Positions 22,310 to 61,777 of a DNA stretch of 64,000 nucleotides are shown piece after piece. The stretch is from Chondrosia reniformis (taxonomy: Eukaryota; Porifera; Demospongiae; Chondrillida; Chondrillidae), in assembly GCA_947172415.1 (NCBI GenBank), contig OX359197.1:3286001-3350000 (forward strand). Reading direction: 5' to 3'. Both the position numbers and the translations under genes were made by a program. Within the stretch, counting starts at the first letter, position 1; each line of letters opens with the position of its first letter. The notes beneath the pieces were generated by a model, which was not told the origin of the DNA, ran no database searches, and saw nothing but the letters and a program-made list of their open reading frames with translations.

Positions 22310-22359
22310 TTCACGTCTGATAGGCTTAGAAATCCAGAGGGCTGGGTGGCTTTTGACTC

Positions 22360-23230: not shown

Positions 23231-23252
23231 TCTTGTGGGTCCAGGGTTAGCC

Positions 23253-35015: not shown

Positions 35016-35633
35016 TCAAGTCGCCGCCTTCACCACAGATGAGACTACCTCAAAATGTTGTGGAAAATGCACAATGTACATTGACTTTGCACTGCTGTCA
35101 ACTGGCAAAGTATGGTCCAAGTGGTAAGGACTATACAGTAGCCAGCTATCAGAACTGGTGTCAAACACATAAATGTTAGTCTGCAGTAAATGAGCCACAG
35201 TGAGGATTTCTACATCTGTACCCCATGCGCCATCCCTGTCCATGTGTGTGTCCTGTATGTACTCAGCAATACTGTTCTGAGTTACATGCGCTCCTAGCAA
35301 GAGGGTTGCAATCTTTTGCATATGGTTGATGATTGCATTTCTAACTGCAAGATGGCCTTCTTGTGACCCTGTGATGATCATTGAGATTGAACGGAAAAGA
35401 CAATTGCCATCTGGAAGCATCCGTCTCACTGTCTGGAAGTTGGGCCGTGTCAGAGGGCAGCCTGGTGTGCCATACCGAAATCGACAAGGTCGTTGGTACT
35501 GGACACCTACCCTACTGCATGCTTTATTTTGCCACTTAGAATCAACTGGATGGAACCTATATAAATGAGCATCGTTCCAATTGACTCCAACCTCTGTTGT
35601 TGCTGTCAATTTCAATACATGGCTCCTCTGCAA
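35016..35633 (-). pseudogene. OTU cysteine protease of Helitron 1
   Basis: A 205-codon frame with an OTU fold signature. The catalytic Cys is in RRMLPDGNCLFRSIS (about residue 78), followed by HLAVRNAIINHM and WGTDVEILTVAHLLQTNIYVF, with the catalytic His in HFPQHFEVV near the C-terminus. OTU domains cleave ubiquitin-like or polyprotein links. OTU proteases are known companions of animal Helitrons. The domain itself appears intact, but the link to the helicase (35,640-35,800) has stops. Confidence 0.8.
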
Positions 35634-35807
35634 GTTGCCTTTTATTTTACTTTATCTGGCAAAGTGGCCTCTTTCGAGCATTTTTGGAGCTTGCAGTTGA
35701 ACCTTTCAGACACTTCTTTTGCTTTTTAGGGTCAGGTGGGAATGTGCAAGTACCACTGAGCTTTCTCTTTCTAATGCTACTTTGTTCAGGTGGCAAAGCA
35801 TAGACCA

Positions 35808-37926
35808 TCAAGTCTGGTCTATGCAATTCTCGTAACCTGTTAATTTCCAGCAGACACTTTGAGCTAACGATAATTGACTTTCTATCAAAGGCAACAGGTG
35901 CACCCCATCAAGTGATCTTACTCGTGACAGTGCAACATAGGCCATACCTGAACTGAAGACCTGGTCACAAAGATCCATCATGGCACAGTCAAGAGAAAGA
36001 CCTTGACACTTGTGGATTGTTACAGCATAAGCCAATATTAGTGGAAACTGTTCCCTGTAAACATAGACTCTCCTCATTACAAGAAATCTGCTCTTGACCT
36101 TTTCTACTTCATACTCTGTGCTCATGTGGTCAAACTTCACTGTCACTTTGTGTGCACCAATGGCCACAACTGTGCCAAGTGCACCATTAACTAACCCCAA
36201 GCTTGTGTTAGTATTCCTACGCAACATGACTCTTGCCCCAACAGCAATACGAAGCACAGCCTCTAAACCAGCAGTTAGGTTGCAGTCTTTTTTCAGTCTC
36301 TTCAGCTCTTGTGCTTCTTTTTGCTCCATTTATGCATGCCTTTAGTTTCATCTACTTCATCGGTGCAGCAAATTTCAACAGTCTTGCACTGTAACTTGCT
36401 GAGCATTTCATTGTTGAACTCTTCGCATGCCTTTCGTGTAGGAAATAGGCATACAGGCGACTTCCCAGAGTGCATCAGTTCCTCAAATTTATCAGTTATT
36501 GGACCATGGATAACTCTCTCTTCCAGAGTTTTAACACATTTCTTCACACACGCAACCACGTCGGATTTCATCCAGAATTCCACAGAATTGTGTGTTCTTT
36601 CTCTGACGCTCATTAATTGTCAGCTCATCATATTCTACAGTTTCCTTCCAGATGTTTACTGAAGTCATGCAACCTAGCTTTGATAAAACTGCTTTGTTGT
36701 TCAGTTTGGCAAACACAGGTGCACCATTGACTGAAGCCAGCTGCAGAAGATCACCCACAAAGAGAATATTGATTGACCCAAACCAATTGTCAGTCCCAAA
36801 CACTTCTTCCAGGCACAAATGAAGATAGGCCAGGTTGAGACTAGATAGCATAGACACTTCATCAATTATGAAAAGTTTCACATCTCGGAAGTGTCGTTCT
36901 CATGATCTTCAATGAGTCTCGTGCCAGTCCCCAATAGCCAGCTTCTTTTCCCTCATGCTCAATGGGTAACTGAAACAAACGATGCACAGTAACGCCACCA
37001 ACATTAAAGGCTGCAAGCCCAGTTGGTGCAGCCACTGCACAGAGAAGTGTCTCATGCTTGTCTTTCCATATTGTAGCCACCTGAGCTCTGATGGCTTCAA
37101 TAAGGAAAGATTTTCCAGTCCCTCCAACTCCGCTAACAAACATTTGCAGTGGTTGCAATTGTGAGCATTTACACACTCCAGACTCATGTTTTTGTTGGTG
37201 TAGAAGGTGTTCAGACATGCGTGTAAAGACACGTGACTGGTCTGCATTCAATTTGTCAATTCGCACTTCAAGGCTGATTTCATCAGTACAATTTGTTTGC
37301 AGCTCCTGGACATCATTCATAGCTGCTGTTGCTTCCCCAACAATTTGGGGTCCTTTGTCCTCGTCCTCTTTGTCAACAGAGAAAGTTGCCTCTTCTTGTC
37401 TAGCTTCATTAATCTCCTTTACTTTAGCATTTGCTTTCAGCATTTGCTGCAATCTGTCATGGTGGCTGTACATGTCAGGGTTGGCCTCTACTAAATGAGC
37501 AAAGGCTTTTTCAGCAGATTCATTCTCTGCAAGTAGATTACCTTCACTTCTAAAAGGCGCAAACAACAGTAGCATGGAGTAAAAGTACTCTTCCTTCTGA
37601 TCCTCTTTGTTAGGATCAAAGAGCCTGTGATTTGGAAGCCCAGGCTTGGTAAGCCTGTGATACTTGTGCTGCCCTGATTTGTCATCTTTACACTTGGCAT
37701 AGTATTTAACAAAATCATAAAGGCAAACCTCCTCCATTTCTGCGGGCCTTTGTGGGTAGTATGTGTCAATGACACTGTCTTCAAAGATTTCAGTTGAATT
37801 TGGATCTTCCTTTCCAAGCTTTTGCAGCCTACTGTGATCCTTCAGTCTGCGTTTCCTTTTGTGTGGAAAGGTGGCGTCAATCCACTGAACTGTGTCAGAC
37901 TTTTCACACAAGTGATCGCCAATCAA
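35808..37926 (-). pseudogene. PIF1-type helicase domain of Helitron 1
   Basis: Frames in order: a linker ending FYPQRP-like/EEVCLYDFVKYY, the Walker A SGVGGTGKSFLIEAI, CAVAAPTGLAAFNVGGVTVHR, then in a new frame the Walker B LFIIDEVSML and VGDLLQLASVNG. A further frame gives NERQRKNTQFCGIL-type and RKACEEFN segments, then GARVMLRRNTNTSLGLVNGA and AVTIHKCQGLSLD with YVALSRVRSLDG. This superfamily 1 helicase would unwind DNA for rolling-circle transfer. Breaks near 36,870, 36,570 and 36,310. Confidence 0.85.
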
Positions 37927-37956
37927 CAGATCGCTTGCTTCATAGAGTCCACACTC

Positions 37957-39128
37957 TCAAGAACGCAAACTTCTGATAACAAAGCTCCAAAGTCGACTGT
38001 ACACACTTTTGTTGGAGCCAATTTCCTGCCCCAGATCCTGCATGTTACTTCTTTCTGCCTTTGTGACATATCCTGTCACATAGTGAGCAAGGGCTAGTGA
38101 CGACTCGGCAATAAACTGTACATCAATGTTTGCTTTCCACAGCAAAAGCAACAGAGGATTGTAATCATTTACTCTCGTCTCCTGTTCTGCCCGTTGAAGG
38201 TGGTATAATTTTTTCTTGATTTGAGGCAATCTTCCACACTGTTCAAAGAGCCAGTGTCACTGACTTCCCATGGAAATCCAAACTTGCATCTAGTCACAAA
38301 TGCTCCATTGTACCTTGCCTTTCGCTTGCAGTAGTTGCTGTATTTGTGCATCTGGTACCTAATGACCAACCTGTGCAACTCTGGATTGGTCCTTTCTTCA
38401 GGTATTTGACAAGTGATTCTCTTCTGAATCCAATCTAGCACTCGCTTTGGCTAATCCTTGCCAATCACTGGTGCATTTTGTAACCAGAGGACAACATGAT
38501 GATGAGGTGCACCCCGTGTCTGATATTCCTTCTTGAAGAAATAGTGCTCTACCTTGCCAAAAACCTGTCCTTTTAGAATCACAGTATTGAACAAGGCATG
38601 GAACTTTAGAGAAAACTTCCTAGACATTGAAATGGGATCTTCACAGCACAGTTTCCCAACTGGATAGCTGTCAGATACCTGATTAATTTTTTTTAGGTAA
38701 CTTCCAATCTCTGGAGACTCATATTCAGCACAACTGAATGTGAGAAACAGGGTAGGAGTACCCCATTCACGAAGCATGCAACGCAGTTCACTGTACCTCA
38801 AGAACCAGTACTGCTTAGTGCCTCGAATGGACTGGAATATTGTGGACACGTTTGCTTCCACCGATTCATCAGCATGTGATACCTTGTCTAGGAACAACTG
38901 CACAGACATTCTTTGGTGTTCTATCCTTTTCATCAAATTGTAAACCCCTGCAGAGAGCTCCCATAATTCTTTCTGCCAAAGGAGAAAGAATACATACTGG
39001 GGATCTTTTCGAAAACTAGAGTCCTTGTTTAACAGCCGAGATTTGACATACTCACTGGAGGAGATTTTTAATTCACGTGGGTGAAACTCACCAAACCTAC
39101 CACTTGGGAACGGATGAGGAAAGCACAT
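37957..39128 (-). pseudogene. Rep (HUH nuclease) domain of Helitron 1
   Basis: Starts with the Helitron-like N-terminal block CFPHPFPSGRFGEFH, then QSIRGTKQYW and TPTLFLTFSCAEYESPEI. The HUH motif reads RGAPHHHVVLWL (about 38,490). After frame changes near 38,450 and 38,200 come YQMHKYSNYCKRK, CKFGFPWE and LLLWKANIDVQFI. The tyrosine motif is AHYVTGYVTKAE. The enzyme would nick and rejoin single strands. All signature motifs are present but split into three frames. Confidence 0.85.
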
Positions 39129-39185
39129 GACATCCAGGAATTTTTGGCGATTGTCAAGTGCATCCTCCTTTACACTAAGCAGTTT

Positions 39186-41055
39186 TTACTGTTCAATATC
39201 ACAAACTGTAGACTGCTTCACATTCAAACTACGAATGGTGTATGAATGAAAGCTGGACACATCTTCCTTACTAGCCTTTACTAACATGGTACTGGTTGCA
39301 CTGTCTGCAGTTTCAATGACTTGTTGTGCAACCTCATTAATGCTTGTGTCAGCAACTTCTTTGTAAAGCCAATTTATTTCTCTTAGTTTTTGAATGGCAG
39401 TCTTGACTGCACTCACATCAACTATGCTGCGCCAAATGACCTTCTCTGAAGGTGTTCCATTGACCATGATGTACAATTCAGGGTCAGGCAATGGCACATG
39501 TGGATCTTGGTCAGATTTCTGCGAGAGTGAATTGCTCTCTTGGTTGACAGTCTTCACATTTCCTAATGTTTCCAAAGTTTTTTCAAAGGTAGGGGAAGAA
39601 AGAACATGGTTCCCCTACAAGCTTTCAGTGAATTGTAAATAGGCACTTTGCTGTGTATGTGCCTAACCTTACAATTGTCTGAAATGCTTTCGCTCGTTGA
39701 ATCAGCTGTCTACTCAAAACATCCAATTTACCTAGTTCTGCAGGCATAGGCTCAGTTATCAAACCATTCAGAATACAGCACGAAGGTACCTTGTTGTCAT
39801 TCAGAAATGGTCGGCAGAATTGGCACACATACAGAGAATCAATTTCAGTTTCATTGTTCTGCTCAAGTATGTACTTCTTTAATTGCTGCTAGACCTTTGT
39901 CCCAAACTTTAAGGCACTTTTCTTCATGCTTGTGACATTCTTTCGTTGGTGCAAACGCTCACAACAGCAACATGCATACTCTGGGTCATCACCAACCTCC
40001 TTCCCCAGTTTAGTAATCAGGTTGGCATGCTTTACTTGAAGCAAGGGTTCCAGACTAGGAAGACCTGCTGCCAAGTTCTCTTGAGATGATTCACACTCAC
40101 TCTGACATAGTTCCTCACAATGACTGATGCCAGCAGCATCCATTAGTAGATCAAAATCTACTAAACCAAGTGCCACATCAATGGCATAAATTTGGCGATG
40201 GTGGTTTCTTGCAGAATATAGCCAGACTAGGAACCTTGGTATTTGTGGGTAGTGAGTGGAAGCAGCACTGAGGGTTTTATACAGACTACTGCAGATTCCA
40301 ATGGCACAGGGAAATGGGTGACCTAGCAGCTTATGGAACTGCTCTTGCTCATCCAGTTGACTGGTGAATTTAGCTGCAAAGCACCGATCTGTATAGTGTC
40401 CATGCTGACATCCCTTGTCTATGGACTCAAGTCCATTTCTAAGCTCTTGCTGGGATTTTTTGTAAAGTTCCTTTGCTGCAACAATGGAACTAATCTCTTT
40501 ATCTGTTGGCAGTTTGCACTCTTCTGTGCACTTCCACTTTTTGGGACGCATTGTATTTTTGTCTCTGTCACCCACTTCCTCAGCAGTGCAGCATCGTCCA
40601 TACTCATCCACTGATATGGCATTGTTTTGCTTCATTGGGATGTAAGCGGTATCATAAAAGAATGGCTCTGATGAAGCAGTGTGCCACCTTTCTCCCAAAT
40701 TCAATGATGACAGTTCAAAAGAATTTACCACTCGAACACCCTTCAGCAACTCTCCCACTCTCTCTCTGCACTTCTTGACTACCCTGTCAACAAGTCTTCG
40801 TACAGTGATTCTGTAAACGATTTTTGTCAAGACACCTTTTGACAATTTACTTGCAATATTTTCATGACTTTGCTTAATGTCTTTCCTTAATTCCAGTCTC
40901 AAGGAAGGCCTTGAAAATAGCTTTTTCTGCAAATCTGCTACATACTGCTGCCTAGCATATGCTTTTGGTTCATTCAAAGCATATTTATCTCTACGATAAA
41001 TATTTACATGCTCCTTATTCTGTTCATAATTTGATTTTGATGCAGCTATTTTCAT
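39186..41055 (-). pseudogene. Helitron 1 N-terminal zinc-binding (DUF6570-like) region
   Basis: The 388-codon piece (39,889-41,055) contains CQHGHYTDRC and ends in a Cys cluster, YACCCCERLHQRK. The next frames contain YVCQFCRPFLNDNKVP, GLITEPMPAELGKLDVLS and RAKAFQTIVRLGTYTAK, then a basic/acidic linker with WRSIVDVSAVKTAIQKL. This arrangement, with CxxC pairs before the Rep domain, is standard for animal Helitron proteins. Frame breaks lie near 39,885, 39,640 and 39,180. Confidence 0.75.
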
Positions 41056-41600
41056 CCATTGTTTTTAACATAATTTGCTCTTGAGGCAGCTTTTCTCACA
41101 CCTGAGTTGAATTTGTACCTTTTTCTATCTGCAGCTTTCTTTGCTTCTGGATTGACAGCGTAACGAGCTTTAGCCGCAGCCTTCCTAGCTTCAGAATTAG
41201 TAGAGTAGTTTACTTTAAAAACAAATTTCCTGGCTTCTGGATCAGCAAAGTGTCTTGCTTTAGCTGTAGCTTTCTTTGCTTCTGGATTGACAGCGTAACG
41301 TGCTTTAGTCGAAGCCTTTCTAGCTTCAGAATTAGTAGAGTAGTTTACTTTAAAAGCAGATTTCCTGGCTTCTGGATCAGCAAAGTGTCTTGTTTTAGCT
41401 GCAGCTTTCTTTGCTTCTGGATTGACAGGGTAACGTGCTTTAGCCGAAGCCCTTCTAGCTTCAGAATTAGCAGAGTAATTTACTTTAAAAGCAGATTTCC
41501 TGGCTTCAATGTTAATTTCATAGCTTTCTTTGGATGCCTGTCGTTTTGGTTCAGGACTGTCTGCATAATCAAGCCTTCTCTTCTTCTCTTTGCAACACAT
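41052..41600 (-). pseudogene. Lys/Ala-rich repeat region of Helitron 1
   Basis: Encodes three copies of a 45-residue unit (NPEAKKAAAKTRHFADPEARK-like) downstream of the 2A motif. The frame is +1 relative to the 2A piece, the switch falling around 41,570-41,600. Highly charged, probably helical. Function unknown; Helitron 2 has different repeats in the same place. Confidence 0.65.
41139..41545 (-). repeat. 135-bp tandem repeat, three copies, in coding frame
   Basis: The landmark TTGCTTCTGGATTGACAG (plus strand) recurs at 41,141, 41,276 and 41,411, an exact 135-bp period (45 codons). Confidence 0.85.
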
Positions 41601-41838
41601 ACTTTTGTTTCTTGGCCTGTTTCTTAAGCCATTCCTTTGAAGGACCTGGATTTGATTCCATATCTCCTCCAAGCAGCAGCAACAAAGTAAGTACACTGGC
41701 TAAGGAGCAATTACGTTTATAATAGCATCTTCTGCATTGTAGAAGCCACAGTGTGTATCTGAACCAGTACTGCTTCTGACAAATGAATGTATGCTTGCCA
41801 GCATCAACAGTACTTAAAATAAATGCATAATTCCTCAT
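41569..41838 (-). CDS. Helitron 1 leader with 2A-like ribosome-skipping motif
   Basis: A minus-strand frame with a Cys/Arg-rich stretch (LLQCRRCYYKRNC), a hydrophobic run ASVLTLLLLLGG and then GDMESNPGP (41,641-41,667). The last part fits the 2A consensus D-V/I-E-x-N-P-G-P apart from Met for Val/Ile. Peptides of this type make the ribosome skip the final Gly-Pro bond, and in sea urchins some act as signal sequences. The frame ends at 41,569, and the repeats continue in another frame. Confidence 0.65.
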   Translation of the reverse strand: MRNYAFILSTVDAGKHTFICQKQYWFRYTLWLLQCRRCYYKRNCSLASVLTLLLLLGGDMESNPGPSKEWLKKQAKKQKYVLQREEEKA

Positions 41839-41976
41839 TGCTATGCTATTATAGAACTGAAGTATAGTATTTTCAATATAATGACTGCGACTTGTCCCTT
41901 TTGCAGCTGTAATAGTGATCCTTATAAAATCATTTGGAGCTGCAACAAACTTTGGTACTTCCCTGAGAATCTCACT

Positions 41977-42402
41977 TTACCAACTGCCACAGTTATGGGA
42001 CTTATGGCCCCAACAACAGAAGGAATTACCCCAGTCACAGGGCCAATAGTCCCAGCCACAGGACGAAATGCCCCAGCCACAAGGCCAATAGTCCCAGCCA
42101 CAGGACCAAATCCCCCTGCCACAGGGCCAATACAAATTTATTAATTCATCAGTGCAATTAACACTACATATGGTACAAGGTAGACACAGGTTCTGCATAT
42201 CTAAAAGTTCAATAGCAGGAACAACTGTTTCCTGTTCCTCGCCCTGTACAGCAGGTGGAGTTCTGCAGAAAATAAGTAAAGAGTCTGACACTGGTTGAAA
42301 CAGGAGAGTAGCTGACAAATATGCCAGAAACCACACGACACAGCCACATTTCACATAACATTGTAAATTGTATAACTTATCTGATCTTGGTTCCAAATCC
42401 AT
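41977..42402 (-). pseudogene. CGW-repeat ORF upstream of Helitron 1 2A
   Basis: A 141-codon minus-strand frame with a Cys-containing segment CLPCTICSVNC and then a run of CGW heptapeptides (WPCGWG, SCGWD). A stop at 41,977 separates it from the 2A piece, either because the copy is decayed or because an intron lies between. Confidence 0.5.
42000..42135. repeat. 21-bp minisatellite (CCCAGCCACAGG)
   Basis: About six units with CCAGCCACAGG as the core, degenerate. A longer, cleaner version is at 52,480-52,715 upstream of Helitron 2's 2A motif. Confidence 0.8.
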
Positions 42403-42480
42403 GTGCTTGGTGCATTTCCTCCTTGCTGATCCTTTCCCAAATTTCTTGTTCTAAATTTTGTAAATAAGTTGTATATGCTC

Positions 42481-43530: not shown

Positions 43531-43745
43531 AGGAAATTTTTCTAGACTAGTTTAGTTATAAATATTAAACTCTGCCCGCAGAAAACTCTATATTTTGTTT
43601 GTTTGTAATCAGGGCGACCTCCCACTTGGGAGATAAAACCCTTCTTCTTGTTTTGATTGATAGATTGAACTTAAGACAACTGAAAGTAAAGTCATTTTCA
43701 ACTTAACTCTCTATCTCACAATTATGTGAAAGAGTCAAGAAAACG
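43531..43745. other. Spacer before GIY-YIG ORF
   Basis: Contains a GTTTGTTTG run and a CTCCCACTTGGGAG palindrome near 43,620. Probably part of the element that carries the downstream GIY-YIG ORF. The reading frame is open for only about 15 codons upstream of the ATG. Confidence 0.4.
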
Positions 43746-44627
43746 ATGAGGCCGAAACGTATGAAAGAAAGCCTTTATGATGTGGAAGTGGTCGAGCATA
43801 ACATTATGACAGGCCAAGTGAAGGTCCATTACCGTGGTTATAATCATACGGTTACGATGAATGAAGGTAGCTATCCAGAGGACTTAGACATACAGAGTAG
43901 GAATGTTGTGTATCTTATTACTTGTAAACAATGTGATGTACAGTATGTAGGAGAAACCTCTCAGATGCTTAGGAGTAGAATGAACAACCATAGGACTAGT
44001 ACCAAAGGTTTTAAGCCACTGTATCTTTACAATCACTTTAATTCTGATAACCATAGTTTTGATGATGCCTTGATTATGCCCATAGAACAGATACCTGAGA
44101 CACCTAATTCTACTAGCCTCAGACTACTGAGAGAAGCGTTCTGGTACAAGGAACTCTGCTCTATTTATCCATATGGACTTAACGATAACATTAAAGGCGT
44201 TGGCAATATTTCAAAACTTAAAAAAGAAATCATCGTATGGAACCTTTTTAATCGCTTATCTCATAAAAGACGGCATCGGCGCTCCAATCTAAAATCGACA
44301 GGCAGTAGTAATAACGCTACCTTCGACCCTGAATGGCTCAAAGAACGACTACCACTTTACAAGAACGTGGGCTTTCTAGCCAAACTTAAACGCGATACTT
44401 TTGCATTACAAGCTCGACACCTTCATCGTTTGTTAAACTCGGTACAATGTCTCATCGATACCCCAGAAACACCTTTTCCGCTTAGACTTATGCTAATGAT
44501 TAAAGACGTTATTAAAGCACGCGCTTCAGCCAGCCTTCCCAAACACACAACGAAAACGACAAGTCCAGAAGGGTTTCTTAAAATCGTGTTTCATAATAAA
44601 GATGTAGAAACAAGTAGTTCGAGTTAA
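43746..44627 (+). CDS. GIY-YIG endonuclease ORF, PLE type, intact
   Basis: A 293-residue uninterrupted ORF. Residues about 10-40 (DVEVVEHNIMTGQVKVHYRG) resemble a chromo-barrel/Tudor-knot fold. Residues about 55-125 form a GIY-YIG domain: VVYLITCKQCDVQYVGETSQ with the paired Cys typical of Penelope endonucleases, RSRMNNH and YNHF. LLREAFWYKEL and PYGLNDN follow. The C-terminal 150 residues are basic with no recognised domain. No RT is encoded upstream, so this is either a 5'-truncated PLE whose endonuclease survives or a separate endonuclease gene. It ends inside the structured hairpin at 44,611. Confidence 0.7.
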   Translation: MRPKRMKESLYDVEVVEHNIMTGQVKVHYRGYNHTVTMNEGSYPEDLDIQSRNVVYLITCKQCDVQYVGETSQMLRSRMNNHRTSTKGFKPLYLYNHFNSDNHSFDDALIMPIEQIPETPNSTSLRLLREAFWYKELCSIYPYGLNDNIKGVGNISKLKKEIIVWNLFNRLSHKRRHRRSNLKSTGSSNNATFDPEWLKERLPLYKNVGFLAKLKRDTFALQARHLHRLLNSVQCLIDTPETPFPLRLMLMIKDVIKARASASLPKHTTKTTSPEGFLKIVFHNKDVETSSSS

Positions 44628-44677
44628 AAAAACTCGTGGGGGCTGCCGCCTCCCACGCACTCGAACTACTTGGCGGC
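44611..44677 (+). other. Structured double-hairpin element, copy 2
   Basis: Homologous to 17,111-17,180: CGAGTT/AACTCG stem with A-rich loop, then GTGGGGGC/GCCTCCCAC, within an outer GTAGTTCGAGT/ACTCGAACTAC stem. The stop codon of the GIY-YIG ORF lies in the first hairpin. It may act as the RNA terminus or recognition structure of the element. Confidence 0.6.
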
Positions 44678-45530: not shown

Positions 45531-48500
45531 TCATTCTTCAGGACCACACTGTGACAAAAAGGTGGCAAATGGAGCAAAATCTGTTGAAATCTTTGCAGAT
45601 TCTACTGGAAGTAAGGCAGTGAAATGAGAGGAATCCAAAAAACCTAAAAGTGGCACTTTATCTTCCAGGACTGAGTCAGGACAATAGCAATAATTGTTAT
45701 TTAATCTCTTATCTCTCATTTTAAAAAGATCTTTTAATTCAGCTTGTGTAATGTCATGCTTAATTGGTTGGAGCCTTTCCCCTTCATGATAGAGACTTCT
45801 GTTGCACATCACACCATACAACCAGATAGGCCTTTTTAAAATCAGAGCTAGGGCATACAAATGAAATTGGTCACCCCATGCTTTATCGTGGATTGAACTA
45901 CAAAGGATTTCCAACCATTGTCTCTCTGCTGCCTTAGCAACTGCAAGAGGCTCTCGTTCCCCTGGCGGTATATGTATTCCTGCAACTGGTTGTATGACTT
46001 TTATCAGGCGTTCTCGATGTACAATTATACTATAAGCAGTCAACAACCTCAAGTGCCACATATACTGCTCAGTACCAGAAAGTGATAGGGAAAGCATGTT
46101 ATACATGCAATTACCATCTCCTTTAGTGCACACTGGGACATATTGAGAAGTAAGAGCTGCAAAGATCTTTTCTTTTTCCAAAATATCTACTAGATGACAG
46201 TTGCTAAATGTAGCCCTGCAAGGTATATTTATCACTTTTAAAATACAGTCTAGTTCATGGCTGTGAGAGTTTGCCCATTTTGTTATCGACTCAACAGTTG
46301 GACTATTTTCATTTACTATCACTTCTAGTGCCGTTTTCAGTGAGGACACCAGCTGTGCATCAACATTAACAATCGGATTTAAGTGTACAGATTGACTGAC
46401 TTCCATGTGGACTACTATAGGCTTCTGCTTGCCTTGTAACTCATTATCCCTATTTTTAGTAGACAATGTCTGCTTCTCACTATGCAATGCAGCACTTTTG
46501 TCCTCCACCAAAGGATTGGCCCTGTTTTCACTGTTTGATTTGTCAGGACGTTTGCAGTTCTGAACCAATAGATCTGATGTCTGCCCGTCACTTTGCAATA
46601 CACTACCACAAGTAGACTGTTGTCGCAGCCTTGCCATTTCCTCATGAACTCTCTTGTTTGCTGTCATCTTTTGTGGCTCAAAGTTCAGTAGGGCCACTCC
46701 ATTTAGAGTACGCACGCGACTGAGAGCTACATAGGCCATACCAGGTTCAAAAACGTCCTTACCAAGATCCATGACTGCTGCATCAAGTGACAAACCTTGC
46801 ACTTTATGCACAGTGGCTGCCCAGCAGAGAATCAAAGGAATCTGTGTTCTCTGCAAGAGTGTGCCTTCCTTTCCATAGAAGCATGCTGAAATTGCTGCAA
46901 TCGGCACAACTTCCTGATCACCAGAGGCAATTGTCACCTTTGAGAGGCTTCCCACATTTGGATCAAAGAATTTGACATACACCTCTGTAGGCATTTCACC
47001 AGGTTTTCTCTGATTATTTGTTTTTCCTGGCCATTTGAATCCCACAATTATACCTCTGGCACCATTCACAAGGCCATCACCACAGTTGATGTTACGGCGA
47101 AGCATCACTCTGGCACCAATTGCTAACTTCAATTGACGAGGTAATGCAGCACAATCTTTGTCATCCTGTGGAATGAGGCGTTCAGGAACCTCATTGTAAT
47201 TAACATGGGCATAGAATTGTCCTCGACTCTGTAGAATTGCATGTTCTGCATCAATTCTATACAGTTGATTGTCTTTTGCCAAACATGTAATCTGGGTTTC
47301 ATTATATCCTTCTACATCCACTGAACGAGGATACAATCTGAGGGCAGTTTCAAATGGGGGAGCCAGTAAATCCACAGATCCACTGGAAAGCAACCGTGTG
47401 TGCAAAACTTTAACATCTTCAACCGTGTGGTTGCCTATTCTGACACGATTAAGGATATCTGAAAAGGTAGCATCTTTTTGCTGCCGCATATTAACTTCTA
47501 ATTCAACGACCTTGAAGAAATCTCTCCAAAGGTGTGAAGACAATCGGCCTGATGAACGACCAGGTTTCTTACTGAAAACATGGCTCCCATTCACAGGCGA
47601 CAGCTGGTATAAGTCTCCCACAGCTATCACATTCAAACCACCAAATATTTCATCATTGCCATAAATTTCACACAGACGGCTGTGTACAGACTTCAATATC
47701 TGGTATGAAACCATACTAATTTCATCAATTATGATAGTGTGCACCCCTTGCCACAATTTTCTCAAATCATGCAATGCTAAAGCATGCAGTTGTAACTGAT
47801 GGGCCGTCTTGCCATGCTCTACTTGCAGTCTCAGGGCTCTGTGGATGGTTAGGCCTCCAACGTTAAAAGCTGCAACCCCTGTAGGTGCCATCAAGATGCA
47901 TGCATGCTTGTCTGGCCCACTGGAGACCGAGCGCTCCAAATGCTCTTTAATTGCTCTAATTACGTGTGATTTACCAGTGCCCGCTCCACCTGTCACAAAC
48001 AGATGAAAAGCTTCTGGAGCTTTTGGGCGTAGCTTCATTTGGTACTTATGTAATTCTCGAGTGTACTGAACAACTATGTCAAATGGAACCCGTTGTTGTG
48101 TATTGAGGTTTGCAACTAGTTGCCGAAAGACCTCATCAGGAAGGGTGCATCTAATCATTGCCCCAATGGCATTGTCATCATCATTTATAATCCCTTCATC
48201 TAAATTTCCTGCACCCTCAGTGTCATCCTGAAAGTAATGAGGATCAGCAAAATTCTCAGGGTTCATCAATCCACCCTCAGCCTCTACAGGAGGTTTGGCA
48301 GCATCCTCTCGATGAACTTGGAGTGTCATAGGTGCAACTGCATCCTGATAAGCATCGTCTTTCAAGGCTTGCAATTGTACAACAGCCCTCTGCACCTCGT
48401 CTGCAAAAGTGTGGTTCTCTGCATTAAGAACAACCATTTCTCCCTCCCTTGCAATGAAAGCCTCCATTGCTGAAGAGTGGTGTAGTAGGAGATCCACGGG

Positions 48501-49742
48501 TTCCTTCCTCCAAGGAATGTAAAGAAGCAGCAAACTGTAGTAATAGTCATCACCATGACTTTCTACTGTCTGTACTGGTATTCGAAGGCAAGCTTGCTTC
48601 CTTCGAAGGCGCACCCATCCCAAGTTGTTTTGCAGTTGGCTACGAGGCTGCCCTGATCCACTTCCAACGGAACCATCACATCCATCCACATCATACCAGA
48701 CGGCAAAGTGAGCCAACGTCATGTTGGCAAAGTGTTGTGAGTCTGGTCGTGAGGCATATCTATCAAAGATGCCAGGAGCAAAAATGTCAGTGGAATCATC
48801 CTCCAATTGAAGCAATTCAGCTTTACATTTTAGCAAGCGTGTTCTCTTCTCTGGCTTGGTGGTGTTAACAAAAACCACTTTTCTGGAGTTTTCCTTGAGA
48901 GGCAAATGACATAATCGATATGCTGCCTCCTGGGCACTCAATTCACGGTGTGTCAACATGGTGTTGCCAACCTTTGAGAGGCGCTTTCTTGCTGTAGCCC
49001 GAGGAGGCAAGCTTTCCAGTGCATCCCGGATTGCTTTCCTAACCTCCTCACTTTCCGATTTGCACATATATGAACAAACATATGCTGCTGTCCCATAAAC
49101 AGACCCAATCAACTGTATATCCATATTAGCCTTCCAAGCCTTTAGAAGGTGTGCATTGTATGGATTGCAGTTTTCCTCCCCTTCTGATCGTTTCAGAACA
49201 TAAAACCTGGACTTGTTTCCAGGATCGTCATTGTTTTTCAGCCTTGTAACCTCTGCGAGAGGCTGAGGAAAGTCAAATCGACAATCCTTCACATTTGGAC
49301 GTCTGTTTGTTGCCTTTTTGCAAGTGACTGTATGATGGTGTTGCTGCACGTGCATTACCAAAGAATGCAGTTGTTCATCCTTGCTACCTTCATTTGGTAT
49401 GTTCACAGATATATACCGATCAATGTACTGTGGGGCAATCTGCCTTCCAACTGTTGTGTCTAGGTTGGGAGCATCCTTTATCCACCACATAGAATGGACA
49501 TGTGGGGAACCCCTCAACTGAAATTCAATTCTCCAAAAGTAATCAACCACCTCGCCAATGGGTTGTCCAGATCCTTTAATGACCTCCCTGACAAAGGACT
49601 GAAAACGATGGGCAAAATGCCTAGCTGTAACCACCGGATTGGACCTCATCAGGTTTCTTTTTTCACTGGATGACAGGTTGGCTGCTTCTTCCTCTGAGAG
49701 ATTTTGACCCCGACTTTCGCTTAGAACTATCATCAAGTCTAC
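45531..49742 (-). CDS. Helitron 2 Rep (C-terminal part), PIF1 helicase and OTU protease
   Basis: About 1,400 codons without a stop. The HUH motif is LRGSPHVHSMWW (about residue 79), and the Rep tyrosine motif is TAAYVCSYMCK (about 220). Helicase motifs are VTGGAGTGKSHVIRAI (about 585), APTGVAAFNVGG, TIIIDEISMVS, AVGDLYQLSPVNG, LEVNMRQQ, AATVHKVQGLSLD and YVALSRVRTLNG. The C-terminal OTU domain has Cys in CTKGDGNCMYNML (about 1,205), AWGDQFHLYALALI and the His in DSSHFTALLP. The protein would nick, unwind and transfer a strand; OTU may process proteins. It is separated from the upstream ORF only by a TAG codon in the same frame. Confidence 0.88.
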   Translation of the reverse strand, partial: VDLMIVLSESRGQNLSEEEAANLSSSEKRNLMRSNPVVTARHFAHRFQSFVREVIKGSGQPIGEVVDYFWRIEFQLRGSPHVHSMWWIKDAPNLDTTVGRQIAPQYIDRYISVNIPNEGSKDEQLHSLVMHVQQHHHTVTCKKATNRRPNVKDCRFDFPQPLAEVTRLKNNDDPGNKSRFYVLKRSEGEENCNPYNAHLLKAWKANMDIQLIGSVYGTAAYVCSYMCKSESEEVRKAIRDALESLPPRATARKRLSKVGNTMLTHRELSAQEAAYRLCHLPLKENSRKVVFVNTTKPEKRTRLLKCKAELLQLEDDSTDIFAPGIFDRYASRPDSQHFANMTLAHFAVWYDVDGCDGSVGSGSGQPRSQLQNNLGWVRLRRKQACLRIPVQTVESHGDDYYYSLLLLYIPWRKEPVDLLLHHSSAMEAFIAREGEMVVLNAENHTFADEVQRAVVQLQALKDDAYQDAVAPMTLQVHREDAAKPPVEAEGGLMNPENFADPHYFQDDTEGAGNLDEGIINDDDNAIGAMIRCTLPDEVFRQLVANLNTQQRVPFDIVVQYTRELHKYQMKLRPKAPEAFHLFVTGGAGTGKSHVIRAIKEHLERSVSSGPDKHACILMAPTGVAAFNVGGLTIHRALRLQVEHGKTAHQLQLHALALHDLRKLWQGVHTIIIDEISMVSYQILKSVHSRLCEIYGNDEIFGGLNVIAVGDLYQLSPVNGSHVFSKKPGRSSGRLSSHLWRDFFKVVELEVNMRQQKDATFSDILNRVRIGNHTVEDVKVLHTRLLSSGSVDLLAPPFETALRLYPRSVDVEGYNETQITCLAKDNQLYRIDAEHAILQSRGQFYAHVNYNEVPERLIPQDDKDCAALPRQLKLAIGARVMLRRNINCGDGLVNGARGIIVGFKWPGKTNNQRKPGEMPTEVYVKFFDPNVGSLSKVTIASGDQEVVPIAAISACFYGKEGTLLQRTQIPLILCWAATVHKVQGLSLDAAVMDLGKDVFEPGMAYVALSRVRTLNGVALLNFEPQKMTANKRVHEEMARLRQQSTCGSVLQSDGQTSDLLVQNCKRPDKSNSENRANPLVEDKSAALHSEKQTLSTKNRDNELQGKQKPIVVHMEVSQSVHLNPIVNVDAQLVSSLKTALEVIVNENSPTVESITKWANSHSHELDCILKVINIPCRATFSNCHLVDILEKEKIFAALTSQYVPVCTKGDGNCMYNMLSLSLSGTEQYMWHLRLLTAYSIIVHRERLIKVIQPVAGIHIPPGEREPLAVAKAAERQWLEILCSSIHDKAWGDQFHLYALALILKRPIWLYGVMCNRSLYHEGERLQPIKHDITQAELKDLFKMRDKRLNNNYCYCPDSVLEDKVPLLGFLDSSHFTALLPVESAKISTDFAPFATFLSQCGPEE

Positions 49743-52006
49743 CTAGTTATTATCATCAGCACTCAGTGTAATAAAGAATGTGGGAGGACCGAGAGTGCGA
49801 AACATAGCAAATAATTGGATCTTCACTGAGTTCCAATAAGCTTGCGTACCACGAATGTCTTTCATGAAACTGTAACAGTTTTCACGCAATTCGGGATTGT
49901 CATCCAATGGTCCTCTAAGCAATCCAGCTGTGAGTAAGCGCTTATCATCAGTTTCATTGCCAGTCTTATTATCAAAGTGGCTTACTCTGAAAGACCGCAT
50001 TCTCATAGCGATGGAAATGCTGCTCTGCAATTTCAGTGCTTCCACAATGTTGCATGCCCAAAAGATGTATGAAGGATGACAGGCCCATCTTGTGTCAGCA
50101 CTCAGCAATCTCGCTTGGAAATACTGTAGAGGTGAAACCTTGGTCTCTCTGATTTTACCAAAGCTATTTTCACCATCAGGATATAAAGTTGGAAAAGCCA
50201 TTGCTTCAAGATCATCCCGATCCTCAAATATGCTCAATGGTGTAGCTGTTATTCTTTGTAACTCATGAACCTGGTGTTCAATTGATTTACGTTCTTGTAC
50301 CAATTCAACAGCAACTACATTAGGCTGGAGAGCATCCAACCTGACAATTCCAGTTTCATCCATTTCAAGATTTTCTTCTTGTCGGCTGTTCTCACCTTCG
50401 GTGACTTCTTCACCATCAACAAACATACCTTCTGATATGTTGCTGATGGAGACATCTCTATACAAGGGGTTATGCTGCTTTAGCCATTGCAATGCTTGCA
50501 TAACTCTAGAGTACCGACAGCAATGATAAGCTTTATCAGGCCCATTACTTTTGTCTTCACTTTCTGGTGACTGTGGCTGCTGAATGTAAACAATATCTTC
50601 CCCATTAGGTAGACGGGGGAGTTCCGAAATGACAGAGTCAACATTTGAAGGAAAGTTAATCACTTGCCCTCGGACAGCCCTTTGTCCACCCCTTGGTAAT
50701 ATCACCATTTTCATGAAAACAGTGGCCTTTGAAATCAAACGTTGCTCCAATGTATTTAATCCCATTAACACTGAAGGGATGTCCACCACTTTCATTTTAT
50801 TAAACTGAGACACTGCTGGAATTTTTTTTCTTTGTAACAAATTCTTACACCTGTTACAAAACCAAACAGTTTTAATATTATCTTGAATTGATTCATTTAT
50901 TGTAGAAAGTAACTCAACTGCAACATCCAAGCTAAATGTCGCACCCAACTGTCTATAGCACAACTTTCCACATGAATAACATTTATGGGTAGGCCCTTCC
51001 AGAATTACTTTTTCAAACTTTTGCAAATTATTTCTCAATTTTTTGCCTTGATTAGATGGCAATGCAATCTGAAGTGTTGGTACAGTAACAACAGATTCTG
51101 AAACTGTAATAGCAGTAACTTCTGCATCCTCTTCCATGTCTTTCTCTTCAGACATTTGGTAGGTGCAATCTTGCTTAGCAGCACCATACAAAACTGCATG
51201 GTTACAAAGCAATATTTGTTCCCCTTGTAGTCCTTCTTTTGATAGAATATCTATATCTCCAACAGCCAAATTTACCTGTGAAGTAACACTGGCACATTGT
51301 ACATTTTCAGTTTTTTGCACTCCATGGTATTCATCTAATGACTCATGGTTTGTAAACAATTCCTGTTTTCGCTTTCTAAATGCCTGCATTCTTAATCTTG
51401 CTTGATCCTTTTCTCTCTTCAATCTTAGAGTACGCTCCTGTTCAGATTCTTTTACGCTTCTTGATTTTTTCCATTCCTTCATACCACTTAGTCTTGACTC
51501 CAGATTTTCATCTGTTTCTGACAGTAGCCTTTGCTTACGATTTACAGAGAGAGTAGCAAGCCGTGCTTGACGTTCTTCAATACTTTGTGACTTTAAGCGC
51601 TTCTTTTGATTTTCACGAAGTGTAGCAACTCTGGCCTCACGTTGCTCAGCACTTTCTGCCTTTAAACGCTTCCTTTGATTCTCAGAAAGTGTAGCAACTC
51701 TGGCCTCACGTTGCTCAGCACTTTCTGATTTTAAGCGTTTCTTTTGATTTTCGGAAAGTTTAGCAACTCTACCCTCATGTTGCTCATCACTTTCTGATTT
51801 TAAGCGCTTCTTTTGATTTTCAGAGTATTTACTCAGTCTTACAGAACGTTGTTGTTCTGTTTCACACTGTAGGCGTAGTCTTTGGTTTTCAGACATTTTT
51901 GCTAGCCTTGCAGAATATTCTTTTCCTGTTTCATTTTCTAGACACTTTCTCTGATATGTTGATAGCATTGATAGTCTTGAAGACCTCCTTGCTTCACTCT
52001 CTGCTC
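49743..52006 (-). CDS. Helitron 2 N-terminal region up to Rep
   Basis: In frame with the downstream ORF. It begins after the A9 run with ESEARRSSRLS and continues through basic 23-residue repeats (SENQKKRLKSES). A zinc-binding DUF6570-like part follows: HKCYSCGKLCYRQ, WFCNRCKNLLQRKKIP, LNTLEQRLISKATVFMKM and LPRGGQRAVRGQVINFP. Then comes the Helitron-like N domain, AFPTLYPDGENSFG and IFWACNIVEALKL, ending FFITLSADDNN followed by TAG, where related proteins have Trp. The first ATG in this frame is near 51,968, but the frame is open up to the A9 run. Confidence 0.85.
51560..51960 (-). repeat. 69-bp tandem repeat in coding frame
   Basis: About six units of 69 bp (23 codons, ENQKKRLKSES..EARVA). 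Adjacent starts at 51,598 and 51,667 give the exact period. The encoded repeats are highly charged and probably helical. Confidence 0.85.
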
Positions 52007-52865
52007 TTTTTTTTTACTCTGATCATCAGTCAACTTAGCAGCCGATGCAGGAAGGCTGGAAATTTCATTATTGTGATATGGTCCCGGATTTAGTTCAACA
52101 TCTCCGGCCAGCAATAACAGTAAGCTTAACACACATGCTAAATAAACGTTACGCTTACAATGTTTCCTTTTGCATGCCAAGTGGTCCAATGAATTTCTAA
52201 GTCGGAAATGATTTTGATGAATGCATTTCTTATGCAATTGCACCATTTCACAATAATAGTTCCTTAAATTAGGATGACAGTCCTTCCAATTAGCAGTGTA
52301 ATGCCCATGGTTACACCCATAAGTAGTAGAAAGGGTACACAAAATGCCCATTCTTATTTCATTCAATACAGTGTACTCTACTACTTTATGGTTAATAATA
52401 TTTGTGTCTGTTAAGTTAAATGTATAACTTGGAAATGACACTAAACAGGGCAAACCTACCCAGCCATGTGCATTGGGTGAGCAACCCCAGCTACTGGGTA
52501 ATTGATCCCAGCTACAGGGTGAAGAACCCCAGTCACAGGGTGAGTAACCCCAGCCACAGGGTGGGCAACCCCAGCCACAGGGTAATTGACCCCAGCCACA
52601 GGGTGAGCAACCCCAGCCACAGGGTAATTGACCCCAGCCACAGGGTGAGCAACCCCAGCCACAGGGTGAGCAACCCCAGCCACAGGGTAATCGACCCCAG
52701 CCACAGGGTGATTTACTTTGACTCCAGAAACAGAGCAAAGAATTGACAGACTGAGTGTAATTATGTTTGTAGATAGTGCCTATCATGACAGTCTGTTCAT
52801 TTGAGATGTATGCAAATGGAGTCTTAGAATGCATACGTACCGTATATTGTTCATTTTTCAGACAT
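51938..52865 (-). CDS. Helitron 2 leader: CGW repeats and 2A peptide
   Basis: Open from a likely splice acceptor at 52,866-52,867. It encodes CLKNEQYTVRMHSK, then about ten heptapeptides of the type SPCGWGC/QLPCGWG, a Cys/His-rich segment (YGCNHGHYTANWKDCH) and a basic stretch (ACKRKHCKRN). A hydrophobic run CVLSLLLLLAG follows, then GDVELNPGP (52,079-52,105), an exact match to the 2A consensus. The leader would be released from the replicase by ribosome skipping, and the hydrophobic run could serve as a signal sequence. The frame ends at 51,938; the replicase follows in the -1 frame after an A9 run. Confidence 0.75.
52480..52715. repeat. 21-bp minisatellite encoding CGW heptapeptides
   Basis: About eleven units, ACCCCAGCCACAGGGTGAGC-like on the plus strand. 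The period is a multiple of three, so all frames stay open and spurious ORFs appear on both strands. Confidence 0.92.
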
Positions 52866-53213
52866 CTATAGCCTGGAATAAAAAATAGAAAGGCAGCTAA
52901 TATATATAGAAATGATTATCAACAAAACCCAGTCACACAGAATAGAGCAACTTACAGTAAAGGTACAATTGCATGCATGTGAAAAAATTACTGTGATTAT
53001 TAAAAATTTGGCCTCTAAACACATTAGCATTTTTTATGCATGTGATCTTGTCAATCAAGATTATATAGCACCACCGCTTGAGCAGCTAGCTGCCCCACCC
53101 ATCACCTCTAAGCAGCTGCCCCACTCACAGCCTTCTAGGATCACATGACGGCACGATTCTGGACTAATAATAACTATATTATAGAGTAAATGGAAGTGAT
53201 GATTTCGACTTAC

Positions 53214-56068: not shown

Positions 56069-56682
56069 CCTAAATGTACTGTAAGACTTTAGTAGAGGGA
56101 AGTCATGAGCTGTAAGACTATAAGACTAACAGAAAAGGGTATATTTGGAGGCACCGTAACTTTAGACAAATGTAGAACCCCTCTGCTAAGCTACACTCGT
56201 ACAACTTTAGACACACTTAGAACCGCTCTGCTAAGCTACACTCGAACAACTTTAAACAGACTTAGAATCCCTCTGCTAAGCTACACTCGAACAACTTAAG
56301 ACAGACTTAGAACGCCTCTGTCAAGTTACACTCGAACAACTCGATGGACACACTTACAACCCCTCTGCTAAGCTACACACGAACAACTTTAGACACGCTT
56401 AGAACGCCTCTGCTAAGCTAGACTCAAATAACTTTAGACAAATGTAGAACCCCTCTGCTAAGCTACACTCGAATAATTTTAGACAGACTTAGAACCCCTC
56501 TGCTAAGCTACACTCGTACAACAGTAGACAGACTTAGAACGCGTCTGCTAAGCTACACTCGAACAACTTTAGACAAATGTAGAACCCCTCTGCCTAAATG
56601 TACTGTAAGACTTTAGTAGAGGGAAGTCATGAGCCATAAGACTATAGGACTAACAGAAAAGTCTGTATTTGGAGACACCGTG
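56069..56682. repeat. 45-bp tandem block 1 framed by a 90-bp direct repeat
   Basis: A segment starting CCTAAATGTACTGTAAGAC (56,069-56,159) recurs at 56,593-56,682. Between them are about nine copies of a 45-bp unit (CTTAGAACCCCTCTGCTAAG, then CTACACTCGAACAACTTTAGACA). Confidence 0.88.
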
Positions 56683-58899: not shown

Positions 58900-60172
58900 A
58901 CATCAGACACAGGTAGAATGCCTCTGTACGCTACACTTGTACAACCTTAGACACACGTAGAACACTTCTGTCAAGCTACACTCATACAACTTAGATAGAC
59001 TTAAAACTCCTCAGCAAAGTTAGCTACACTCATAACCTTTAGACACACTTAGAACTCCTCTGCTAAGCTACACTAGAATAACTTTAGACAGACTTAGAAC
59101 GCCTCTGTCAGGTTACACTCGAACAACTTTAGACAGACTTAGAATTCCTCTGCTAAGGTACACTCGAACAACTTTAGACAGACTTAGAACCCCTCTGCTA
59201 ACCTATACACTCGAACAACTTCAGACAGACTTAGAACGCCTCTGCTAAGGTACACTCGAACAACTTTACACAGACTTAGAACGCCTCTGTCAAGTCACAC
59301 TCGAACAACTTTAGACACACGTAGAACCCCTCTGCTAAGCTACACTCGTCCCACTTTAGACACGCTTAGAACGCCTCGGCTAAGCTATACACTCGAACAA
59401 CTTCAGAGAGACTTAGAACGCCTCTGCTAAGGTACACTCGAACAACTTTAGACAGACTTAGAACGCCTCTGTCAAGTCACACTCGAACAACGTTAGACAC
59501 ACGTAGAACCCCTCCGCTAAGCTACACTCGTACAACTTTAGACAAATGTAGAACCCCTCTGCTAAGCTACACTCGAACTACTTTAGACAGACTTAGAACC
59601 CCTCTGCTAAGCTACACTCGAACAACTTTAGACACACGTAGAACCCCTCTGCTAAACTATACGCTCGAACAACCGTTTAGATAGACTTGAACGCCTCGGC
59701 TAAGCTACACTCGAACTATTTTAGACACAATTAGAACCCCTCTGCTAAGCTATACACTCGAACAACTTCAGAGAGACTTAGAACCCCTCTGCTAAGCTAC
59801 ACTCGAACAACTTTAGACACACGTAGAACCCCCCTGCTAAGCTATACGCTCGAACAACCGTTTAGATAGACTTGAACGCCTCGGCTAAGCTACACTCGAA
59901 CTACTTTAGACACAATTAGAACCCCTCTGCTAAGCTATACACTCGAACAACTTCAGAGAGATTTAGAACGCCTCTGCTAAGGTACACTCGAACAACTTTA
60001 GACAGACTTAGAACGCCTCTGTCAAGTCACACTCGAACAACTTTAGACAGACTTAGAACGCCTCTGCTAAGGTACACTCGAACAACTTTAGACACGCTTA
60101 GAACCCCACTGCTAAGCTACACTCGAACAACCTTAGACAGACTTAGAAGGCCTCTGTCAAGTTACACTCGGA
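58900..60172 (+). repeat. 45-bp tandem block 2
   Basis: About 28 copies of the same 45-bp unit as block 1. Variant units are ordered in a higher-order pattern: the series with TATACACTCGAACAACTTCAG followed by GGTACACTCG and GTCACACTCG units returns near 59,200, 59,385 and 59,940. The block stops just before the Merlin element. Confidence 0.9.
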
Positions 60173-60187
60173 TCAGCCGTAATATAC

Positions 60188-60235
60188 GGACACGGCGTCC
60201 ATTTGCAATTATGACGTAACCAATCACTCACGCGT
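60188..60235 (+). repeat. Merlin terminal inverted repeat, left
   Basis: 48 bp identical in inverse orientation to 62,926-62,973. Similarity stops sharply after CACGCGT. Confidence 0.95.
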
Positions 60236-60716
60236 CACTTCAAGAGGCGCTTCCAAGTATCGCAGGGCGTTTACTGCCTTTACTTCTTTTTTTGTTCGTA
60301 GGGGTTGATGGATGGAAGGATCACCGTACGCTTTCGAAAATCAGATGCGCCCGTAAGTTGTTAGCTGGGATCGTTGGCTGTATCCATGATTTCTCGTCCT
60401 TGTTATGGTTCTTGCCCTGATTTTGCGTTTAAAAAATTTCCGAAAAATTACAGAGCGCCTACGGTTCAGGTGTTCTGAAATTTGGCCCGCTTAGGGAATC
60501 CCAACTAAATGCTATACTATAATTCCAGTTTAATTAAAGATTGGCCGTTTTTGTTGTCACGTTAGTTATGTATTCTCAACTGTTTGTGTTTGTTTACTCA
60601 TTGTTTGTTTGTAAACAAACCCTTGATTTATTTTGTATTTTGTCAAGCCAATCATTACTATCTATGATTACAAAAACGGATATAAATAGTGTAAATGTAA
60701 AAGATGAAGTAACTAT

Positions 60717-61777
60717 CTAAACAGGATATTGTTGTTTAATCTGTGCAATTAGGTTTTGAAACGCTTCCCTTTTTGATACCCCATACCGCTCCCGCCACAT
60801 GAACTCGTCCAGGTAGGACGGCAGTTGTTCTTCTGAAACCCCTCTCATGTTTTTAAATTTAATTTTTGCTCTATTCCAATAGCTTTCAATGTTCTGTGTG
60901 TGGGTCCCAGTAGGACCCACAAAGTTAAGGCTATGATTTACAGTTCTGTGGGCAGCTACATTGGGTAGCTGCCCAACATTACTGTACGCCCTCCATTCAT
61001 CAGAGGCGATGATTGTGCCTGGCTTCACGTGAGCTTGAATAATTGGCAGCAGAGTACCAGCCCTTTGGTCGGGCACCAGCTCCATGTACCCAAGGGCTGG
61101 GTCGAAGGAAGTGTCGCATAGCCCAAACACCCATCGTTCCTGCCTTGGAGGTCTGCCCCTGTGATTCTGTGTATACATAAGTACATTTGGAATGTTAATT
61201 GAATTTAAATGTTAATTTCTTTTTTCAATCATCATTTCTTTGTAATTTTATATACCTTAGGTTTGTGGGAAAACAGCGACTCGTCGATTTGCACCACCAC
61301 CCCTTGACCTCCAAGGAGAATCTGCAGAGAACACAGCTTGGTGGAGCACACCTCCCGAAACCACTGGAATGCTGCACATGCCGTGTTCTCAGTGACCTCT
61401 ATTTGGGCAGCAGCAGTTGTTACAGCTATTTCGAAGGCCCACCAGTGCATGAGGAGGAGCCACTTCTGCAGTGTGAGCTTAGATTTACTGAAGAAGCTCC
61501 CCTCCCTGAGTGTGGCACACTTGTGACATGCAGGACACCTCCATCTATGTGATAATTACATAATTATAATTATTTTTATCCTATTTTTATTGTAAAATAA
61601 GTTTTATTAATTTTATATGTACCTGAATTTGTCCGAGATATCTTGGCGTGGCACCATGGTCATAGCTGTGCCACAGGAACAGGTCCTGCTGCTTGCCAGC
61701 AGGCCTTTTGATTGAAACCAATCAAGTAGATCATCTTGTGGTCCAAAAGCAACCTTACCAATTTCCAAAAATGACAT
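60717..61777 (-). CDS. Merlin transposase (3 exons, 297 residues)
   Basis: Exons on the minus strand: 61,623-61,777, 61,256-61,544 and 60,717-61,166, with GT-AG introns of 78 and 89 bp and phases that join correctly. The N-terminal zinc ribbon has CSCG..CPAC cysteines (RTCSCGTAM, WRCPACHKC). Then come LTLQKWLLLMHWWA and ENTACAAFQWFREVC. The DDE residues are in VVQIDESLFSHKPK (D1), IIASDEWRAYSNV (D2) and THTQNIESYWNRAK (E3), followed by LPSYLDEFMWRERYG. It would cut and paste the element at its 48-bp ends. No stop or frameshift is seen after splicing. Confidence 0.88.

Follow-up and report, generated by a model that had tools for sequence, protein, structure and literature searches.

The window (the whole stretch of DNA analysed, 64 kb in length, positions 3286001-3350000 of contig C9 in an assembly of 117,379,552 bases and 15 contigs) carries on its minus strand a Helitron copy, assigned here to family A. 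In this copy the minus strand from 52105 to 52079 reads GGAGATGTTGAACTAAATCCGGGACCA and encodes GDVELNPGP, a 2A/StopGo core (52079..52105) in which the peptide-bond skip would be expected between the last G and the P. The residues directly N-terminal of the core are ...ACVLSLLLLLA (longer upstream stretch: LACVLSLLLLLA); a first-pass annotation of this DNA had reported a leucine run followed by a fit to the 2A consensus, and this is borne out by the sequence. The segment just N-terminal of the core, CKRKHCKRNVYLACVLSLLLLLA (52106..52174, minus strand), is basic and then leucine-rich, and it is the part of the leader conserved between families. The remaining leader is an open frame on the same strand, delimited from stop to stop (52175..52915), and it contains an array of 21-nt (7-aa) units, the CGW array (52538..52705). 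NPGP is found at three places in the six frames of the window, namely the 52105-52079 region, 41652-41641 and 23248-23237. The octapeptide DVELNPGP agrees with the StopGo core consensus (D/G/C/N)(V/I)ExNPGP, and the preceding LLLLAG, compared by eye, fits the class of LLLLSG-like hexapeptides, both as given in the available part of PMC12846837.

The same annotation had placed the 2A between a CGW leader and the Rep/helicase region and proposed that it splits the leader from the replicase. The order holds: the CGW array (52705-52538) precedes the 2A within one frame, and the Rep region follows. A single frame through all three, however, is not present in the window copy, where leader and 2A occupy 325 codons (52915-51938) and the Rep lies in another frame (52013-49743). 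The two frames depart from each other at a run of nine A (52007..52015, minus strand), which has ten A in the uninterrupted sister copy L013. The Rep frame is further divided by a TAG at 49745-49743: the first open frame (49743..52013, minus strand) encodes STPR repeats, DUF6570 and the start of Helitron_like_N, while the second (45531..49742, minus strand) encodes the rest of Helitron_like_N, a PIF1-like helicase and an OTU-like protease. The window copy, which is 99.8% identical to two copies on contig C4 over the ~9.5 kb compared, is thus broken; the proposed splitting finds no support in it, and no claim is possible for its own expression.

The 3' terminus is marked by a palindrome with two 14-nt arms 34 nt apart (44611..44672, minus strand). 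When eight other copies were compared at this end, six continued to ACTTGTTT and then differed from each other, and the other two (L020 and L019) diverged slightly before it. In canonical Helitrons, according to the available part of PMC4067079, the 3' end is CTRR, a palindrome lies ~11 nt before it and insertion occurs between A and T; here, the sequences of the copies part right behind the palindrome, after ACTTGTTT, and not after CTRR. Such an end fits the Helentron/Helitron2 type, and the element looks Helentron/Helitron2-like. It has in common with Helentrons and Helitron2, as far as they are described in the same portion of PMC4067079, the Rep/helicase, the OTU-like protease, the 3' palindrome, the T-rich 3' junction and tandem repeats within the element. 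A difference is the C-terminal AP endonuclease of Helentrons: no endonuclease family was among the Pfam matches (E <= 0.01) in the three copies searched (L013, L031 and L029), and their content fits the single Rep/helicase ORF without endonuclease of Helitron2, an element defined also by palindromes and asymmetric inverted repeats at both termini. In all three, the HUH Rep is joined to a PIF1-like SF1 helicase (PF14214 and PF05970); the OTU domain was found in L013 and L029; it was not found in L031, where the part of the frame that was read stops short of this region. Stretches that we take to be the HxH and two-Tyr motifs are visible in the Rep alignment of relatives from families A, B and C.

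At the other end, the resemblance to other copies extends as far as ~60169, a position within a tandem array that hides the 5' terminus. Units of ~45 bp are repeated upstream of the coding part on the minus strand, at 56158-56593 and around 60100, and also in other copies. A candidate empty site on C14 matches at the left flank but not at the right, and thus did not fix the 5' end; an upstream exon guessed from raw sequence reading was discarded, as it did not join in frame. The flank at ~60170-60800 recurs at C14, C1 and C8, and lies beside an open frame (60717-61211, minus strand) whose product resembles an ISXO2/Merlin-like transposase. A second, decayed Helitron, of family C, lies at 35016-42450 on the minus strand; it has its own leader open frame (41977..42450), its own CGW array (42102-42040) and a 2A reading GGDMESNPGP, with M in the V/I position (41641..41670). 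Between the two Helitrons, the plus-strand open frame 43707-44627 (YLITCKQCDVQYVGETSQ) encodes a product that resembles a GIY-YIG nuclease.

Intact copies and conservation of the 2A core

A 63-aa probe around the 2A retrieved 77 places in the genome; 75 were read, the remaining two being second halves of split copies. D(V/I)ExNPGP is present at 55 of these leader-like places, a looser core at 4, NPGP alone at 5 and none of them at 11. The core is GDVELNPGP in family A, GGDVELNPGP in family B, where some copies have GRDVELNPGP (R replaces G before D at 5 of the 75 places), and GGDIESNPGP in family C. Families D (LLLLSGDVEVNPGP), E, F, G and H were recognised from short pieces; the leaders of D, E, G and H are quite unlike, yet a hydrophobic run followed by D(V/I/M)ExNPGP is found again. 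The first-pass annotation had made the presence of a 2A at the matching position in related Helitrons a test of its proposal, and several families of this same genome have it.

Differently from the window copy, four copies from three families carry the leader, the 2A and the Rep/helicase in one stop-free open frame, with the core inside that frame and a product on both sides of it, as StopGo demands. The whole frame from leader to helicase is stop-free in L013 (family A, 2523 aa) and in L029 (family C, 2510 aa); L031 (family B, 2312 aa, 2262 read) and L030 (family C, 2555 aa, 2438 read) are stop-free as fetched. In family D, conversely, the 2A frame (mostly 208-335 aa) is separate from the Rep frame (up to 1652 aa), which suggests an intron or damage between them. 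Family D also includes three Helitrons arranged head to tail, at C5:4587408, 4599373 and 4611338, with equal 2A segments and a spacing of exactly 11,965 bp; they are possibly a tandem multimer formed by rolling-circle replication or an assembly artefact.

Overall identity is 70% between A and B and 29% for both A-C and B-C, and the 2A stands out in the divergent comparisons. In the B-C comparison it ranks first among 2846 windows of 20 columns (16 of 20 positions identical); between A and C it scores 14 of 20, a value that 36 of 2846 windows attain but that, within the first 1150 columns, is seen at the 2A alone. The A-B comparison does not single out the 2A window, 797 windows being as good; in the nine codons of the core, however, pS is 0.545 and pN is 0, against a pN of 0.255 in the neighbouring post-2A/STPR region and 0.42 in the stretch before the core. 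Such a pattern bears on the proposal that the leader is removed, if at all, by proteolysis, for example by the element's own OTU-like domain, and that the 2A is a decayed relic. An OTU-like domain is in fact encoded at the C-terminus, and cleavage of Rep/helicase subunits has been raised as a possible role (PMC4067079, available part); a relic, however, would not accept synonymous change alone between A and B, nor stand out between B and C, and this explanation is very improbable.

Equally, the motif might be an ordinary membrane anchor or peptide without skipping, whose fit to 2A is incidental. The 3 of 75 places where the core has DM, DL or DT would be compatible with it. The invariant residues, however, are those of the 2A core (D, E and NPGP) and not those that a membrane anchor needs; leaders otherwise unlike each other have just hydrophobicity and this core in common, and LINEs of the same genome bear the same core upstream of their reverse transcriptase. 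An incidental fit is thus very improbable.

The rest of the leader behaves differently. A-B mismatches at codon positions 1/2/3 are 33/31/35 in the interval between -300 and -75 nt relative to the skip site, 6/3/9 from -75 to 0 and 28/18/59 from 300 to 600 nt after it; between C1 and C2 (L029-L069), they are 33/27/38 from -420 to -45 nt, the L069-L070 pair within C2 having been left out of the codon-position test as out of phase in parts. Third-position bias is thus absent upstream of the last ~25 codons of the leader in A/B and ~15 in C1/C2. A and B are also nearly identical in the leader, with pS/pN of 0.066/0.073 before the CGW array and 0.029/0.034 in it; since the two rates are about equal, there is no sign of protein constraint there. 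The possibility that array and leader are a plain non-coding repeat was nevertheless rejected, because the frame is open more often than chance allows. It is open through the CGW array in three families, for 271 (A), at least 220 (B) and 297 (C) codons; of 2000 shuffles each for L013, L031 and L029, respectively, 0, 1 and 0 left the stretch from the array to the skip site open, and 10, 448 (the piece being cut short) and 3 did so for the stretch before the array. The leader was therefore kept as a fast-evolving leader of uncertain start, for which, judging from these alignments, extra conservation appears only near the skip site.

These data also concern a dual use of the hydrophobic run, in which translation would start close upstream, the run would serve as an N-terminal ER signal and incomplete skipping would yield a fused secretory product together with one released to the cytosol or nucleus. 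In eight leaders the hydrophobic cores are of 11 aa, with a mean hydropathy of 2.3-3.5; a Met codon precedes the skip site by 55 codons in A, 62 in B and 65 in C, most of the conservation falls within the last ~25 leader codons, and the sea urchin NLR leader offers a precedent for split targeting (PMC4981915, available part). However, the open frames reach far upstream, with the lengths given above, and the array-to-skip stretch is almost never open in shuffles, so that the run is probably not N-terminal; moreover, the 66 residues read upstream of the core in family D contain no Met. A dual signal is therefore unlikely, though less so than the explanations based on proteolysis or on a membrane anchor.

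Distribution in the genome and other owners of the motif

The DNA pattern GAYRTNGARNNNAAYCCNGGNCC, corresponding to D(V/I/M)ExNPGP, has 126 sites in 117.4 Mb, 69 on the forward and 57 on the reverse strand; the backwards control of the pattern has 1 site genome-wide, which excludes a chance origin of the motif. With a wider core pattern, sites rise from 126 to 143. For Helitron_like_N, at least 133 matches were obtained from 150 candidates scored, and these were merged to 119 places. For 69 of these 126 2A sites, Helitron_like_N follows on the same strand at a distance of 550-3364 nt, whereas the three control placements (on the downstream side, and on either side on the other strand) contain 0, 0 and 0 sites. 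Seen from the other side, 69 of the 119 merged places have an upstream 2A and 50 have no exact one; in seven of the 50 an A-type leader is present in decayed form, and in 43 nothing matching such a leader was found. The figure of 43 overstates the true absence of leader or 2A, since at least three of these places (C2:5043121, C1:5025288 and C13:2521412) have a D- or H-type leader relative upstream, read by eye. Helitron matches seem to be mostly mid-chromosome on contigs C1-C14, perhaps pericentromeric, an impression formed without a count; cox1 is on contig C15.

The phase between 2A and Rep was determined for 29 pairs, from 30 of the 133 Helitron_like_N matches hand-picked mostly for long or stop-free frames; 13 of the 29 are in phase and 10 and 6 in the other two phases. 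The excess is slight because most copies are decayed. Among Rep frames longer than 1600 aa, 8 of 11 are in phase, but three of the 8 come from a single tandem array of family D copies whose 2A frame is just 247 aa long.

Outside this genome, a profile search of other genome contigs gave 0 of 286 candidates. In viral contigs, the Rep-helicase query had 294 relatives, and for the best 80 of them the matches listed cover the helicase part alone; the query with Rep alone gave 0 of 39 candidates.

The 2A is not peculiar to Helitrons, since LINEs of the same genome carry it as well. Among the RT candidates scored (150 of 1688), a reverse transcriptase domain follows at least 14 of the 57 sites without Helitron_like_N downstream, at 1.4-1.9 kb and on the same strand, and none of the 57 is preceded by one. 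The other 43 have no owner by the RT/Helitron_like_N count, and some of them are Helitron copies found by the 63-aa probe. A LINE-like remnant is also present in the window (21524-23251, minus strand); its start reads V*ANPGP, with NPGP at 23248-23237, and its 2A is probably decayed, as a similar-looking piece, L091, has SGDVETNPGP. In some pieces of non-Helitron type (L090, L095 and L096) a zinc-finger-like stretch follows directly after the 2A; it is rich in Cys and His and resembles, as we assume, a PHD finger.

LINEs inserted near Helitrons could in principle be the owners of the motif, as 2A-bearing LINEs exist in the genome and a decayed one lies inside the window. However, the 2A and the Rep/helicase are in one uninterrupted frame in the four copies described above, and for 69 of the 126 sites the order and strand with respect to Helitron_like_N are constant. 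A nearby LINE as owner is refuted for families A, B and C by the single frames together with the fixed order, and has a practically negligible probability overall.

Proposed leader release and known 2A systems

The reading preferred here, to which a probability of about 0.8 is given, is that the N-terminal part of the replication protein of these Helentron/Helitron2-like transposons contains a genuine 2A/StopGo element, which would release the replicase from a leader. Skipping, as well as the purpose of the leader, may be deduced from the anatomy described above and from the known mechanism of 2A sequences. The leader would be translated first, ending with 25-30 residues that are basic, then leucine-rich, followed by GDVExNPG; from within the exit tunnel, this nascent chain would stall the ribosome. 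The leader would then be released, ending in ...NPG, and the ribosome would continue without a new start. The replicase would thus begin at the proline and include STPR (or other basic) repeats, DUF6570, HUH Rep, PIF1-like helicase and OTU. The benefit would most likely be a nuclear replicase with a clean N-terminus, free of a hydrophobic, Cys-rich leader, with both products obtained from one mRNA; as a role for the leader, this clean release is preferred over dual targeting.

Skipping is considered likely because SLLLLLAG-DVELNPGP fits by eye the active L-rich class of PMC12846837. According to the part of that source available, the upstream motifs of the L-rich kind have (A/S/C)G as their last residues ahead of D, the representative of motif 6 supported StopGo in reticulocyte lysate, and the four classes tested reached ~93% to almost 100%. 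The L-rich (motif 2/6) viral sequences described there have in common with the Helitron ones the LLLLSG-like hexapeptide, the G before D and DVExNPGP, but they belong to proteins of RNA viruses. The 2A signal sequences of sea urchin NLRs (PMC4981915, available part) similarly have a hydrophobic segment fused to a 2A core, with possible dual targeting; they are, however, N-terminal, 26 aa long and part of host immune receptors, whereas here the 2A follows a frame of 220-297 codons in a transposon. Finally, 2A-like sequences were described in APE-type non-LTR retrotransposons by Odon et al. 2013, as cited in the available parts of PMC4981915, PMC11512398 and PMC12846837. Like the Helitrons described here, these are mobile elements of cellular genomes and have a D(V/I)ExNPGP core, but they belong to class I and encode a reverse transcriptase, in contrast to a DNA transposon with HUH Rep and helicase.

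The use of StopGo in cellular genes is called rare in the available part of PMC12846837, whose main text mentions neither transposons nor helicases, and 2A is not mentioned for Helentrons/Helitron2 in the portion of PMC4067079 at hand. No account of a Helitron 2A was found in the literature search; such proteins may already be listed by Rao et al. 2025, a study of eukaryotic and viral 2A sequences known here through its citation in PMC12846837. The device is a known one, and apparently the class of owner is new. Tentatively, and with slightly less than an even chance of being right, it may be supposed that leader release by 2A is old and retained in Helentron-like Helitrons of animals, predating the split between families of 29% identity, that Helitrons and LINEs, as unrelated classes in one genome, converged on it or exchanged it as a means of ridding their enzymes of a fast-evolving hydrophobic leader, and that skipping is general in animal mobile DNA and not mainly viral.

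If skipping does take place, a major class of DNA transposons would use a translational recoding that the literature consulted attributes for the most part to RNA viruses, LINEs and a small number of host genes. Skipping would also explain how a leader and a clean Rep/helicase can be obtained from one Helitron mRNA, and the annotation of animal Helitron proteins would change, with the replicase beginning at a proline. The many natural 2A variants in one genome, together with the LINE versions, form a set for studying the origin and spread of 2A sequences.
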